From assembly GCA_021108215.1 (NCBI GenBank), contig JAIORK010000018.1:1-64000 (forward strand): 64,000 nt of DNA, in the 5' to 3' direction. The notes under the pieces are model-generated. The model did no database searches. It was not told where the DNA came from and saw nothing but the letters and a program-made list of their open reading frames with translations. The stretch is from a bacterium (GTDB lineage Bacteria; Oederibacteriota; JAAXVQ01; JAUVAV01). The translations under genes and the position numbers were made by a program. Shown here piece after piece: positions 42,843-53,399 of the stretch (positions within the stretch are counted from its first letter, which is position 1; each line of letters opens with the position of its first letter).

Positions 42843-44381
42843 TTACCGGGCGATGATAAATTTTTCCATGGCTGTCTCTTTCTCGCCAATTGTGATCTGG
42901 TAAAAATAAACCCCCGGAGCAATCAATGAACAATCCCAGTTGATAGTGCCCTCGCCGGTCAATGTCGTGCTGCCGGTAATTTCCGCCACCCGCCGGAAGT
43001 GGGTATTGTAGACCCGGACAACGGGCTCACCCTCGGCATCGGTCATGCGATAAACAAAATTGACTTGTGTCGATGCAGGCAAAGGATACGCCTTGGTGCT
43101 GTCCGCCCCGGTAATATGATCCGGTGCCGGGGTCAGCGTACCTTCCGGCGTGGCGGTTGCGATCGGCGTTGGCGTTGCTACGGGTGTTGGTTCAATCCAG
43201 TGCTTGACATGCACCCAATCGTTGCCCGAACCATTGTCCTCCTCATGCCAGGTAACAAAGGGACCGCTTTCCGACACAGCGATATCTGCAAACATAGCAT
43301 TTTTGCCCACATTAATATTCAGGCTGTCATCCAGAGATTCCCAATCAGAACCATTATAAAATTTCACATAGATATTCCCCATACTCGCCAACTCCTGTCC
43401 ATAGGAGAGAAAGAGTGTGTCGGTCTCATCCACCACCAGTTTGGGGTATCTGACATTATTATTACTGGCCACCACTGATCCGTGCAGTACCCAGTCGCTT
43501 TCGTTCCAATATTTAACCAAAATCTTGGGTTGCAAAGAGTCCTCAACATACGCAACAAAAATCTGATTGTTACTATTCACTGCAACTGAGGGGGCGCCAT
43601 CAGTGGTTGTCAAGGTTCCCACCCGGCCGCCCACTAAAATCCAGTCCACGCCACTATATTTACGCACATAGACATCCATATTTGCAGTGTCTTCCTGCCA
43701 GGCAATCACCGGTAAATTATCCTCTCCTACCGTAATGGAGGGCGCAAAAGCAGATGTAGTGGTCTGGACATTCAAATACCCATTGCTTGATTCGTCCATA
43801 TTAATATGTGAAAGATCCGTGCCATTGAACCGCAGCGCATACACCCGCTGCAAGCCACCCTCGTCTTCCAACCAAGTCATTTGTCCCCAGGCCGGGATTT
43901 GGTGATTAAAGACGATTTTCGCGTTACCTGCGTTATTGTCATAGCTCCGGTTGCAAATCGTGTTCCCTTGCCAGTCAGCGCCATTCCACTTGGAAAGACG
44001 CACCTTGGTGGTTGCAGTACTGGTTTCGAACCAGCAAATATAGGGGACATCCGTGTGAGGATCAATTGCGAGATCCGGCGCATAAGCATCCTCATCATTC
44101 TGGAAATTCACATGTCCGGCCATATTCCACCAGTCAGCGCCATTCCAGCGTTTAACATAAATCAGTTGATTGCCGCCGGTGGTCTCCTGAAACGCCGCAA
44201 AAGTCCTGCCCGCAGCAACAATATCGCCTCTGGGAACCGCAATCGCGGGGTGATTCGCGTTTTCATTATTATCAATATTCAATTCAACTGCCAAACTTTC
44301 CCAGGACGCCGCCGCAACCAGGGGAAGAAGAAAAGCTACCGATAAGATAATGAAACCTGTTTTTATATCAAGCTTGCGCAT
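42843..44381 (-). CDS. secreted beta-propeller-like protein with C-terminal Por/FlgD-like domain
   Basis: 512 residues with a signal peptide (ending about VAAASW). The main body contains about seven repeats marked by V(K/R)xW(N)G(A/S)DW (for example YVKRWNGADWW, LSKWNGADWQ, VRKYSGVDWI, VKYWNESDWV, VKFYNGSDWE) and (P)xIAVxxxxxPxIxW, suggesting a seven-bladed propeller. A short TPTPIATATPEG linker leads to a domain (AYPLPASTQVNF, VYNTHFRRVAEI, WDCSLIAPGVYFYQITIG) like that of the beta-helix proteins here. Probably exported and surface-anchored; the ligand is unknown. Transcribed toward the PorV-like gene. Confidence 0.78.
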   Translation of the reverse strand: MRKLDIKTGFIILSVAFLLPLVAAASWESLAVELNIDNNENANHPAIAVPRGDIVAAGRTFAAFQETTGGNQLIYVKRWNGADWWNMAGHVNFQNDEDAYAPDLAIDPHTDVPYICWFETSTATTKVRLSKWNGADWQGNTICNRSYDNNAGNAKIVFNHQIPAWGQMTWLEDEGGLQRVYALRFNGTDLSHINMDESSNGYLNVQTTTSAFAPSITVGEDNLPVIAWQEDTANMDVYVRKYSGVDWILVGGRVGTLTTTDGAPSVAVNSNNQIFVAYVEDSLQPKILVKYWNESDWVLHGSVVASNNNVRYPKLVVDETDTLFLSYGQELASMGNIYVKFYNGSDWESLDDSLNINVGKNAMFADIAVSESGPFVTWHEEDNGSGNDWVHVKHWIEPTPVATPTPIATATPEGTLTPAPDHITGADSTKAYPLPASTQVNFVYRMTDAEGEPVVRVYNTHFRRVAEITGSTTLTGEGTINWDCSLIAPGVYFYQITIGEKETAMEKFIIAR

Positions 44382-45328: not shown

Positions 45329-46294
45329 TCACCACGGAGATCACGGAGCGCACGGAGAAAGATAAAAACTTGTGCAGGTTAAGACATAAAACAAATCCAC
45401 CATGACTTTATTAGTTTTCTGTCATAACACAAAACGCTTTATGCCGTTTCTCAGCAAAGCACAATTGAAGTTAAGTAGTAGACCAACGTGAATGTTTGCT
45501 ATTTTCATGTAGGTCAAAATCTGTGCTTCATGTAGGCGCGTAAGCGTATCTACACTTTTCAACTCAACAATAACTTGGTCCTGTACAAAAAGATCGATAC
45601 GGTACCCACAATCCAACATGATTTTTTTATAGCGAACAGGTAATGAAACTTGTGTGCAAAAAGAAATATTGCGGTTTGCCAGTTCGTGAGCGAGGCATTG
45701 CTCATATGCTGATTCCAATAATCCCGGACCTAAACACTTGTGTACTTCAAAGGCAGCGTCAATAATTGGTTGCGTTAGTTCTTGATTGATCATATCCCCC
45801 TCCAAAAAATGGTTTATAAGATTAGACCCATTGGGAGACACATTCCATGCATCATTAATATAATAATAAAAAGTAGTAACTGCGGAGGTAAATAAGATCA
45901 AAGGCTGAAAAATGTAGATGCATAGGGCTATCTACCACGGAGCACACCCTGCTCTTTGATATTAAATCAGAGGAATCGCAGGACCGGCGGAGTGCACGGA
46001 GATAATCAAGATCAAAAGCTAAATAGGGTAAAAGCAAAAAATGAAGATACAAAATGGTACGCTACGGAGTTCATACCCAAACAACGGGTACAGGCGGAAA
46101 CACAAATACAATCGTATATTCTATTTTTTATGCCTTTGATCCTAACCCTATTTTCGTTTTAATGCCTTTGCCCTTTCTTCTTTTTCTGCCTTTGCCCTAT
46201 CCTGTCCTTGACTTTATCCTTTTCGCTTCATGCTTTTGCCTTTACCCTCTTTACATTTTGCCTTTCACCGTGCGCTCCGTGATCTCCGTGGTGA
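45329..46294. repeat. 966-bp region bounded by 27-bp perfect inverted repeats, enclosing a GxxExxY gene
   Basis: The left arm at 45329-45355 starts TCACCACGGAGATCACGGAG and its exact complement occupies 46268-46294; weaker pairing continues a few bases inward. A second left-end-like copy (ACCACGGAGCACACC, 45934-45948) inside shares about 60 bases with the element at 34667. The right third is built of degenerate TGCCTTTGCCCT-type repeats (about 46125-46265) and codes for nothing. This looks like a mobile repeat family carrying or surrounding a gene. Confidence 0.65.
45422..45793 (-). CDS. GxxExxY-family protein
   Basis: 123 residues with the family motif LGPGLLESAYEQCLAHEL (about 22-39), a central VRYKKIMLDCGYRIDLFVQDQVIVELKSVDTLT and a C-terminal HxAQILTYMKIANIHVGLLLNFN. 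The DxxV..ELKS arrangement is a PD-(D/E)xK-like core, so nuclease-type activity is plausible but unproven. The ATG at 45793 follows GGAGGGGG. It lies between CACGGAG-type repeats, the context in which such genes often occur. Confidence 0.8.
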   Translation of the reverse strand: MINQELTQPIIDAAFEVHKCLGPGLLESAYEQCLAHELANRNISFCTQVSLPVRYKKIMLDCGYRIDLFVQDQVIVELKSVDTLTRLHEAQILTYMKIANIHVGLLLNFNCALLRNGIKRFVL

Positions 46295-47288: not shown

Positions 47289-47465
47289 TTAGCTCTTACT
47301 TTGCGTTACTTTCCCACTTTTTTTATTAATAAACTCACCTGAACTTGCTGTAGTTGATGTAATCTTTATAGATTGCTTCCATTCTGGCCATTTTTGTACG
47401 GTTGTACTATTCGCAGCAGCTACCTTCCAAAACGCTTTATAAGAAACATTTTCTTTTTTATCCAT
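47289..47465 (-). CDS. small protein overlapping the anti-phage deaminase gene, 58 aa
   Basis: Below the usual size cut-off but well supported. It starts at ATG 47465, eight bases before the end of the deaminase gene (shared ATGGATAA), with the strong ribosome-binding site AAGGGAGGG seven bases upstream. The product begins MDKKENVSYKAFWKVAAANS and continues TTVQKWPEWKQSIKI before a Ser/Thr/Lys-rich tail. The A..S..VxxWPEWK core is reminiscent of short uncharacterised proteins I associate with defence-type operons, but this is memory, not a search. Translational coupling implies a role with the deaminase, as a regulator, inhibitor or subunit. Confidence 0.65.
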   Translation of the reverse strand: MDKKENVSYKAFWKVAAANSTTVQKWPEWKQSIKITSTTASSGEFINKKSGKVTQSKS

Positions 47466-48876
47466 TTCTAAGCCCTCCCTTTATTTCAGCACCAATAGAA
47501 ATTTCCTTTTCTAAATATGAAAAACCCAATAAAGGAAATCTAAAAATAGCGTCCCGCTCACACCAAGAAATTTTTCTATCAGTTTTTTTTCTTACAACAC
47601 TAATTCCGTTACTCATCTGCAAAGAAAATAAATCAATAAAACGTCGCGGTCCAACTCCAATAAACGGTTGAAAGACTACCTTTGTTGCCTTTTGTTTATA
47701 TTTAGTATCAAATGAGATAGCATCGCCATGCAACTCCAAAGCTTTACTTTTTGGATACGGCTCAATAAACACTACTCTTTTTATACCCGAAGCAACAATA
47801 TGTTTTGCACAGTTATGACAAGGAAAGGTTGTTGAATATAGTGTACCACCACAGGAGCTAACTCCTATTCTAGCACATGCTAATAGTGCTTCCATCTCTG
47901 CATGCACTGCTCTTCCATACTCAGTTATATCAAATAATCCTGTCTTTTTCAATTTTAGTTTCGCTTCTTCTGTTTTTGGCATGTTTAATTCTGTAAGTAT
48001 TTTGTCTGCTATTTTGTTTTGTTCTTCTTTATTAGAATCATATCCTAATTGATAATCTCTTTTGTCATTTTGATCATTTGCCCAATATAGTCCTCCGCCT
48101 TTTTTGGGCACATCATTACAGCCTGTAGATATTATTTCACCATTCCCAGAAGTAATTACCGCCCCCACTTGTCTTGAAAGATCACCCGACCTAAATGATG
48201 CCGAAAACGCAAGAAACATTGCAAACTCATCTTTCGTTGGAGTAAAATAGGGATATCCGAAAATTAGATCAAAAAATTTTTTAACATCTTCTTTCCAGTT
48301 TTTTTTATCGACATCAAAAAAAACATCTGATATATAAAAAGCATCACGAGTATGCTGTCCATAAGCATTCTTCTCTTCTTCATCTCTATTTATAAGTTTT
48401 CTTGCGTTTGCATTTGACATGTTTTTTTGGTGTACTAAATATTTTAGTCTTTCAGTTTGTGAACTCGAAAACCCCATAAGAAAAAAACCCTTACCATATA
48501 CCGTCCTCAGCAATTGAATTTCCTCGGGATGCTTGAGTGATTTAAAAATATAGACTTGGTTTTGTTTTGGCTGTGGAACTTTCCTGATTTCTTGAATCTT
48601 AATTATCGAATATCTTGCAAGAATATCAGCTTGTTTTGTTTGTTGACGAATTTCATTACCAGCAGTCATGCTTGTATTAATCCGAGTATATTCTGACGAT
48701 TTACTAATTTTAGGATTAAACTTCGGAATATTCTGAATAAGCTGGCTTAATTTAATTAAATGTGTTTTATATCCATATTTATTTAAGTAATCCTTGAGTA
48801 ATGTACATATATAATCCAAGTCCACTCCTACAGGTGCAACTAAGCCAAGAAATATTTCTGAATTATATTTTGTCAT
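47458..48876 (-). CDS. avcD: anti-phage dCTP deaminase (AvcD/DCD type)
   Basis: 472 residues. The N-terminal P-loop-kinase-like part has a degenerate nucleotide loop (GLVAPVGVDLD, about 11-21) and FLMGFSSSQTERLKYL. The C-terminal cytidine/deoxycytidylate deaminase domain contains GDLSRQVGAVI (about 231), the zinc and catalytic motif HAE (325-327) and PCHNCAKH (352-359). This two-domain layout is that of anti-phage DCD/AvcD proteins, which deplete dCTP during infection. In known avcID loci the enzyme is silenced by a small RNA, AvcI, encoded next to it. The gene is AT-rich against its neighbours, fitting horizontal transfer, and overlaps a 58-codon gene at its 3' end. Confidence 0.85.
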   Translation of the reverse strand: MTKYNSEIFLGLVAPVGVDLDYICTLLKDYLNKYGYKTHLIKLSQLIQNIPKFNPKISKSSEYTRINTSMTAGNEIRQQTKQADILARYSIIKIQEIRKVPQPKQNQVYIFKSLKHPEEIQLLRTVYGKGFFLMGFSSSQTERLKYLVHQKNMSNANARKLINRDEEEKNAYGQHTRDAFYISDVFFDVDKKNWKEDVKKFFDLIFGYPYFTPTKDEFAMFLAFSASFRSGDLSRQVGAVITSGNGEIISTGCNDVPKKGGGLYWANDQNDKRDYQLGYDSNKEEQNKIADKILTELNMPKTEEAKLKLKKTGLFDITEYGRAVHAEMEALLACARIGVSSCGGTLYSTTFPCHNCAKHIVASGIKRVVFIEPYPKSKALELHGDAISFDTKYKQKATKVVFQPFIGVGPRRFIDLFSLQMSNGISVVRKKTDRKISWCERDAIFRFPLLGFSYLEKEISIGAEIKGGLRNG

Positions 48877-51495: not shown

Positions 51496-53322
51496 CTACC
51501 TGACAACTACCTTTAGAATTTCTCTCACCTCACCATCAATCATAATCTTAGCGATGTAGAGGCCCGGTGCGACATCGGCGCACTGCCAGATCACAACCTG
51601 CCCGTTCCCCGCCAAAAAATTTTCTTTCAAACTGGCAATCCGCTCTCCGGTGATGTTGTACAGATCAATCTGGATAGGTGCGGCTTTTTTGAGGTGCATC
51701 AGAAAGCGCACTTCATCTGTCGCCGGGTTGGGATAGGCCAGAGCATTTTTCCAGTTGAGATCCACATCCGCCAAAACATTTTCAATCATGGTGGGTGTCC
51801 GGGTCACTGTAATCGTGAAGGTTAGACTGATGGTCACCGTTGGGGTGATGGTTGATGTTGATGTCGCAGACGCAATGACGGTTTCAGTAGCACTCGGTGT
51901 TATGGTAGGCGTTGGTGTGATCGTAGAACTGGGTGTCATACTTGCAGTGATCGTGGATGTTGGTGTCCAGGTCAGGGTAGGTGTTGCTGTGGAAACATCT
52001 TCTGTTTCATCAGCACCAACATCCCAGCTGCCTGTGCGTGTCTGTCTATCCATATCATCACTAAAGGGCCAATTGGGATCACTACTGAGATCATCACCAT
52101 TATCCTTAGCCAGTGTATCAAATGGATTCAAGTGAAAGTCTAAATTACCGGGATCATTTTCTTCTACAAAATAAGCTCTGCCGGTTAGAGGATTAAGCCC
52201 CGGCGCATCGCCGGCTATATCTGAAACATTGCTGGTAGAACTTGCATCAAAAGATCCTGAATACCCATCTGTACAAAGTTGCGTAATATTATTTTTCGCT
52301 ATAACAATACCATTCATCTGTTCAACACCAACTTTACAGTCATAGATGGTGTTATTATAAATATAAACATTATAACCACTGTCATTGACAAGTATTCCGC
52401 CTCCTGATGTACTGTTGGTAACATTAAAAGCATATATAATATTATTCCAAATATAGCCATTGCCCGATATGTTGGCGTTAAATTCAATACCATAATAATC
52501 TCCCATTAAACCATTACCACTACCTTTGATAATACATTGGGTTGCTTTGAAATCACAGGCAACCACACTGGTATCAAAATATAGACCTACCCTGCCTGCT
52601 GCACCTGGATTATTCGAAAACAGTTGAAGACCTTCAACTTGAAAATATGCATCCCGCAAAGTAAGCGGTCTGCTACCGGTTACCTCAATGCGATAACCAC
52701 TTGTTGTCCATTTTCCCTGATGACGCTGGCTAACACCGACTTCACTGGGTAGATAGGGTGTATAAATCTTAATCCGATGTGATGCATCTGAGGTCCAACT
52801 CATCCAGGTCGTCGGTGAGGTATCCACGGCATCGTTATAACAAGCAACATAGAAATTTTCATCATTGCTCACCAAATTACGGTTACCAACATCAAAATTC
52901 ACCAACCCCGCATCAATGCCTGTATTCTCTGTGCCATTCCTTAATAAGGCAAGCGTGATATATGCGCGGAAAATCGACCAATCCTGCGTGGCACCGGCAT
53001 CACCGGGTATCGCGCCTGCGGCATCCCGCACAGTATATTCTGTATCCGAAGTCCTGCCGTGAATAAACACAATTGCATCCGGCGTGGTATCGCCGGTGGT
53101 ATCGTATTGGATGACATCTCCCACACCCACATTGTCCGGCACGGCCTGGTTAAAGGTTGCGGTACCCGAGCCAATCGATATGGTATTGCTGTCCGCTGTT
53201 CCGGTATCCAACGCGGTTGTATTGCCGGGACCGACGGAACGATAAATAGGTGCAGCGGACAGCAAGGCCGGATGGGCAAGTGCCAGCAAACAGAAAATTA
53301 TTTTTAGCTTGAACATTCTCAT
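51496..53322 (-). CDS. secreted beta-helix protein with C-terminal Por/FlgD-like domain
   Basis: 608 residues. Signal peptide (MRMFKLK.. to about ALLSAA), a beta-rich N-terminal section (residues 25-160), a beta-helix core with GNGLMGDYYGIEFNAN, IYAFNVTNS, YNVYIYNNTIYDC and NNITQ (about 230-350), the GADE terminal motif common in polysaccharide-degrading or binding helices (SWDVGADETED), a Thr-rich linker (about 450-520), and the YPNPATDEV..YNITGERIASL..WQCADVAPGLYIAKI domain. The ATG at 53322 follows AAAGGA. Surface adhesin or polysaccharide-binding function is inferred only. Confidence 0.8.
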   Translation of the reverse strand: MRMFKLKIIFCLLALAHPALLSAAPIYRSVGPGNTTALDTGTADSNTISIGSGTATFNQAVPDNVGVGDVIQYDTTGDTTPDAIVFIHGRTSDTEYTVRDAAGAIPGDAGATQDWSIFRAYITLALLRNGTENTGIDAGLVNFDVGNRNLVSNDENFYVACYNDAVDTSPTTWMSWTSDASHRIKIYTPYLPSEVGVSQRHQGKWTTSGYRIEVTGSRPLTLRDAYFQVEGLQLFSNNPGAAGRVGLYFDTSVVACDFKATQCIIKGSGNGLMGDYYGIEFNANISGNGYIWNNIIYAFNVTNSTSGGGILVNDSGYNVYIYNNTIYDCKVGVEQMNGIVIAKNNITQLCTDGYSGSFDASSTSNVSDIAGDAPGLNPLTGRAYFVEENDPGNLDFHLNPFDTLAKDNGDDLSSDPNWPFSDDMDRQTRTGSWDVGADETEDVSTATPTLTWTPTSTITASMTPSSTITPTPTITPSATETVIASATSTSTITPTVTISLTFTITVTRTPTMIENVLADVDLNWKNALAYPNPATDEVRFLMHLKKAAPIQIDLYNITGERIASLKENFLAGNGQVVIWQCADVAPGLYIAKIMIDGEVREILKVVVR

Positions 53323-53399
53323 GACAGATCCTTTCTCTTGCATTTGTAAATACGAAGGACATAGTTGACGAGAAAACGTCCACCGCTTCTTTGCCGAAT

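Follow-up and report, generated by a model that had tools for sequence, protein, structure and literature searches.

A possible off-switch for an anti-phage dCTP deaminase: a translationally coupled small protein with look-alikes in viruses, perhaps copied from it

The window, i.e., the whole stretch of 64,000 nucleotides analysed here, carries on its reverse strand a gene assigned to the anti-phage dCTP/dCMP deaminases and, overlapping its 3' end, a gene for a small protein, which we call the partner (Table 1). The frames, both zinc motifs, the overlap and the ribosome-binding site AAGGGAGGG all lie where the earlier note had placed them, and the VxxWPEWK core with a Lys/Ser tail described there reads VQKWPEWK, followed by a tail rich in Lys, Ser and Thr. 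The pair had been called AT-rich, which holds for the deaminase (31-35% GC vs about 39-45% around it). It had also been placed beside XRE regulators and DUF4143 ATPases; two tandem XRE genes on the forward strand do flank it, but only one DUF4143/AAA_14 gene, on the reverse strand. On either side of the region lies a large, secreted-looking protein (42843-44381 and 51496-53343, both on the reverse strand); the two have Thr/Pro-rich linkers, similar C-terminal domains and sorting-type-like C-termini. Near the deaminase pair, a frame judged by eye to encode a GxxExxY-like protein occupies 45422-45901 on the reverse strand.

Table 1. Features of the deaminase locus in the window.
Feature	Position	Strand	Evidence
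Anti-phage dCTP/dCMP deaminase, DCD/AvcD family, 472 aa	47458-48876	-	NF041025, PADLOC dCTPase, homologue model
Small partner, 58 aa (58 codons), ATG start, WPxWK family	47289-47465	-	Conservation, selection, profile
WPEWK core of partner, residues 26-30	47376-47390	-	37 aligned partners
Overlap of partner start and deaminase stop, 8 nt (translational coupling)	47458-47465	-	Sequence and homologous loci
Ribosome-binding site AAGGGAGGG of partner	47473-47481	-	Sequence and homologous loci
HAE zinc motif of deaminase, residues 325-327	47896-47904	-	Alignment A1
PCHNC zinc motif of deaminase, residues 352-356	47809-47823	-	Alignment A1

By sequence, the 472-residue protein is a member of the anti-phage dCTP deaminase family, in agreement with its earlier assignment to AvcD/DCD. 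Over residues 7-421 it reaches 486.6 bits with NF041025, whose curated cut-off is 400; with the PADLOC dCTPase model the score is 563 bits. The zinc-dependent deaminase motifs (HAE, PCxxC) are present, and HAE, P352, C353, H354 and C356 are invariant in alignment A1. An N-terminal P-loop-like domain had been proposed as well. The structure model of a homologue, L079 of Methylocucumis oryzae, was computed from an alignment of deaminase rows only and joins an N-terminal P-loop-kinase-like fold to a C-terminal deaminase fold; among known folds it comes closest to dCMP deaminases (2hvw, TMt 0.75) and to P-loop proteins related to adenylate kinase (3lw7, TMt 0.76). The window deaminase aligns with L079 along its length. 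The proposed domain agrees with the homologue in fold, although GLVAPVGVD in the window protein is without the Walker lysine.

The deaminase sample drew on 80 loci from a species collection, on those of 80 virus loci that are true deaminases, and on the loci examined earlier. A small ORF with W..W[KR] lies behind 47 of the 115 deaminases having enough downstream sequence, compared with 0/115 on the opposite strand, 0-2 of 63-111 farther downstream and 2/109 upstream; overall, such an ORF occurs in 0-3% of the matched control stretches. Counted by profile, a W-P-x-W-K frame of 50-75 aa stands behind 48 of the 115 deaminases that form the rows of our tree, in about ten phyla. The frames of 49-63 aa behind L002, L004, L014, L046 and L050, for instance, have a V..W.xWK core, most of them with a good ribosome-binding site. 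In 42 of 47 loci the partner starts between -30 and +15 nt from the deaminase stop, most commonly at -4, and the translationally coupled protein partner proposed for the window is in this sense a conserved arrangement. A Shine-Dalgarno-like site is found at the partner start in 44/47 homologous loci, a figure that is partly by construction because the start was chosen by that site.

The earlier note had named two observations that would count against the small gene, namely deaminase homologues without a conserved frame and codons without selection. The former is answered by the 48 loci above, the latter by a pN/pS of 0.09-0.59 across 14 pairs of partners; between the partners of the window and L059, dN is 0.37 and dS 1.67. 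When the window's own clade is left out of the training set, the resulting profile places the window frame at the top of 1,862 pieces from all six frames of the window (E = 7e-6; runner-up 0.7). An alignment of 37 partners shows no variation at W26, W29 and K30 and hardly any at P27. AlphaFold2 (mean pLDDT 70) predicts two helices, at residues 4-18 and at 20-24, and a tail of low confidence, which is probably disordered. A tblastn search with the 58-aa protein against plasmid and phage records gave no match, since the proteins of this family are short and have diverged beyond the reach of a single-sequence search. A chance ORF is ruled out by the near-zero controls (0-3%), the low pN/pS and the E-value obtained with the clade left out. 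Judged from these comparisons, the 58-codon frame is a gene under purifying selection, and a conserved, coupled protein partnership with the deaminase is well supported.

The partner is limited to one of the two main clades in a quick tree of the 115 deaminases (V. cholerae AvcD itself lies outside this tree). The tree neighbours of the window come from MAGs of Bacteroidota (63% identity), Omnitrophota and Fibrobacterota, all with a partner. Of the 82 rows in the window's clade, 47 have a partner, one a fusion and one a weak match, and on the tree the partner label changes 12-15 times vs about 37 times when shuffled. Partner-bearing phyla are Pseudomonadota, Bacillota, Bacteroidota, Planctomycetota, Myxococcota, Acidobacteriota, Fibrobacterota and Omnitrophota, plus others. 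The clade of AvcD-like genes, which includes plasmid genes of E. coli and Vibrio, has the partner in 0/22 cases.

About 30 deaminases of the window's clade are without a recognisable partner. L005, L121, L133 and L135, scored as having none, possess a coupled small frame that looks worn by eye and misses the full motif, and the same is seen in L392, which is not in the tree. Fourteen of the roughly 30 make up one subclade (support 100; L074, L078, L083, L084, L086, L092, L093, L095, L099, L101, L104, L108, L116 and L127), which lacks the partner and whose members have an extra N-terminal stretch, either KFTGT.EELK..L..W.ES..NKKVLR..GGVMNWFESTG.I.FQGK or, in L074 and L116, a cold-shock-like domain (for L074, a Pfam match just under the cut-off). 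This stretch is perhaps a third way of control.

Several loci deserve mention on their own account. In the AvcD-like L047, L048, L051, L053, L055 and L159, a frame of 53-62 codons lies upstream in the avcI position; these frames often close with much the same A..K..W stretch ahead of the deaminase. In the second locus of Pyxidicoccus fallax (L249:2520-4351), the deaminase is spread across two frames, and a small WPDWM frame comes after it. An orphan WPTWK frame (L250:411-599) lies near a contig end in the Desulfobulbaceae genome of L108, whose known deaminase has no adjacent partner.

In L079, the module forms the C-terminus of the deaminase itself (...LIKKLGAHVKQWPNWKKNVLGTF), the sole fusion found. 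The model of this protein has a mean pLDDT of 89.6 and shows the module as a helix at residues 501-514, with a pLDDT of about 85 at 501-510. The fusion suggests contact of module and deaminase, and most likely the small protein binds the deaminase in the other loci, too.

The module was also found in viruses. A search of virus contigs by a DNA pattern for F(x10)VxxWPxWK yielded at least 120 stretches. At least 64 virus contigs carry the module at 22 bits or more, clearly separate from chance matches, with a score that is not independent of the motif because the DNA pattern contains it. Of the module-bearing virus records searched whole, 48/49 among the matches listed have no deaminase of this family, and one has a true DCD. 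The module is either free-standing or sits at variable positions in many different small proteins, and lytic phages carry it, too. Named phages among the matches listed are Pectobacterium phages phiTE and CB5, Vibrio phages and Pantoea phage AAS21. In the jumbo phages XbC2 and Kaldavass it is a free-standing protein of 37-38 aa. Some viral copies match specific deaminase partners, with a likeness that extends well beyond the core: L365 is 71% identical to the L004 partner over 42 aa, and L347 shares 59% over 56 aa with the L058 partner, exceeding the best deaminase-linked relative of the latter. The Acinetobacter prophage copies L248 and L395 and the virus contig L346 have an S(L/I/M)xxAF-like tail, common to Acinetobacter partners.

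phiTE and CB5 are unrelated phages, one of myovirus size and one of podovirus size. Their proteins phiTE_068 (L252:1333-1611) and CB5_09 (L253:1333-1611), of 92 aa and ending in the WPxWK module, are identical: a small gene that has lately passed from one phage to another.

In bacterial chromosomes, the module occurs almost only beside deaminases. It was found in 4/176 Acinetobacter genomes, three of these four holding the deaminase, and in 0/273 random gammaproteobacterial genomes besides the query.

The partner family has no meaningful match in Pfam, NCBIfam or PADLOC, and none in the PDB by sequence; no antitoxin family matched, and the partner is absent from all defence models searched. 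In the libraries searched it is unnamed except for PHROGs of unknown function: phrog_38465 matches 18/37 partners and phrog_29728 6/37, and phiTE_068 matches the latter at 2e-66. The window protein itself matches neither PHROG at E 0.01. A PHROG profile gave no match in any of 248 Enterobacterales genomes, an uninformative result. The open-access papers searched yielded no description of the protein partner or its motif; an earlier description elsewhere is possible. The partner is apparently an undescribed protein family. The deaminase is already known, and what appears to be new is the protein partner, its spread, its fusion and its link to phage modules.

How such a partner might act is suggested by AvcID. 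AvcD deaminates dCTP and dCMP; AvcI is an unstable RNA that binds and inhibits AvcD, and when a phage shuts transcription off, AvcI is lost and AvcD released (PMC10511110; review PMC12409362). We give about an even chance to a reading in which the part of AvcI, an RNA antitoxin, is taken by a coupled protein antitoxin that phages mimic. In healthy cells the small partner, as a labile protein antitoxin, would hold the deaminase inactive, the role that AvcI has for AvcD. With host gene expression halted by a phage, the partner would decay; the deaminase, set free, would convert dCTP/dCMP to dUTP/dUMP and starve phage replication. A phage WPxWK module, alone or within another protein, could then re-inhibit the deaminase in trans as an antitoxin mimic. 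Translational coupling would supply matched amounts of partner and deaminase, and the partner's confinement to a single clade points to one restraint having replaced another. For deaminases lacking avcI, the coupled partner may offer an answer to how they are kept silent. The mimic step is proposed because phages should not keep an activator of defence, and because some viral copies match specific partners. As to the direction of the effect, we infer inhibition; the genomic traces of an activator would look no different.

Extended to a family-wide protein antitoxin for one main deaminase clade, with mimics in many lytic and temperate phages, the proposal is tentative and falls somewhat short of probable. 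The phage mimics, alone or in early proteins, would then be counter-defence against nucleotide-depleting deaminases, and this counter-defence would be recognisable from a 30-residue signature. Three observations run against the antitoxin and its mimics: the module varies more among viruses, and has spread further in them, than one might expect of a specific anti-deaminase, the window's clade includes the roughly 30 deaminases mentioned above, and the fused partner of L079 cannot decay separately, so that the simple labile-antitoxin picture would fail there.

A permanent subunit would explain coupling and the in-frame fusion of L079 no less well than an antitoxin. The partner could be a positive subunit or a phage sensor that assembles or activates the deaminase, with WPxWK contacting a phage or host component and the viral relatives being the thing sensed, or a competitor. 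We regard this as possible but unlikely, seeing that many phages carry the module, also as a free-standing protein of 37-38 aa, where retention of a defence activator would be unexpected, and that the related AvcD is restrained rather than activated by its partner RNA (PMC10511110).

Viral proteins with the module are many and unrelated, its place in them varies, and it is found on virus contigs without deaminase, all of which would also agree with a general docking tag for a conserved host or phage machine. Such a tag would be used on many phage early proteins, and the deaminase pair would have borrowed it, placing the enzyme where phage DNA is made; a shared host target would explain the similarity of Acinetobacter phage copies and partners as well. 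This explanation is rather improbable: the bacterial module is found almost only beside deaminases (0/273 random gammaproteobacterial genomes besides the query), and the similarity of L365 and of L347 to one deaminase partner each extends well outside the core.

That an avcI-like RNA at or around the deaminase is the control element and the small frame incidental would suit a short partner matching no named protein family and the known AvcI, described as non-coding, but is highly implausible given the cross-phylum protein conservation, the low pN/pS, the E-value of 7e-6, the near-zero controls and the in-frame fusion. The search for an avcI-like upstream RNA in the window's clade gave no Rfam match and no clear conservation, in a weak test of three upstream regions only.

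With these findings a widespread nucleotide-depletion defence gains a protein partner overlooked by annotation, and scores of phage proteins of unknown function become testable candidates for counter-defence.

Among known families and systems, phrog_38465 and phrog_29728 are akin to the partner through the 18 and 6 of 37 partners that they match, but they are phage families of unknown function with no stated link to a deaminase. The single-gene dCTP deaminase defence (DCD; PADLOC dCTPase) matches the window deaminase at 563 bits; its model, however, consists of one protein and does not include the partner. Type II toxin-antitoxin modules of HigBA-like order have the toxin gene first. The window pair likewise has a toxin-like gene and then a coupled small gene, i.e., the two coupled genes with a small second product that mark protein toxin-antitoxin systems, and a low-confidence tail in the partner; in contrast to these modules, its partner matches no antitoxin family and would act as an inhibitor by inference. 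AvcID of Vibrio (PMC10511110, PMC12409362) shares with the window the deaminase family NF041025, the same expected reaction and a small adjacent element. Unlike AvcID, the window has no recognised upstream avcI, its deaminase belongs to the other large clade than the AvcD-like plasmid genes, and the small element is a coupled protein gene downstream.
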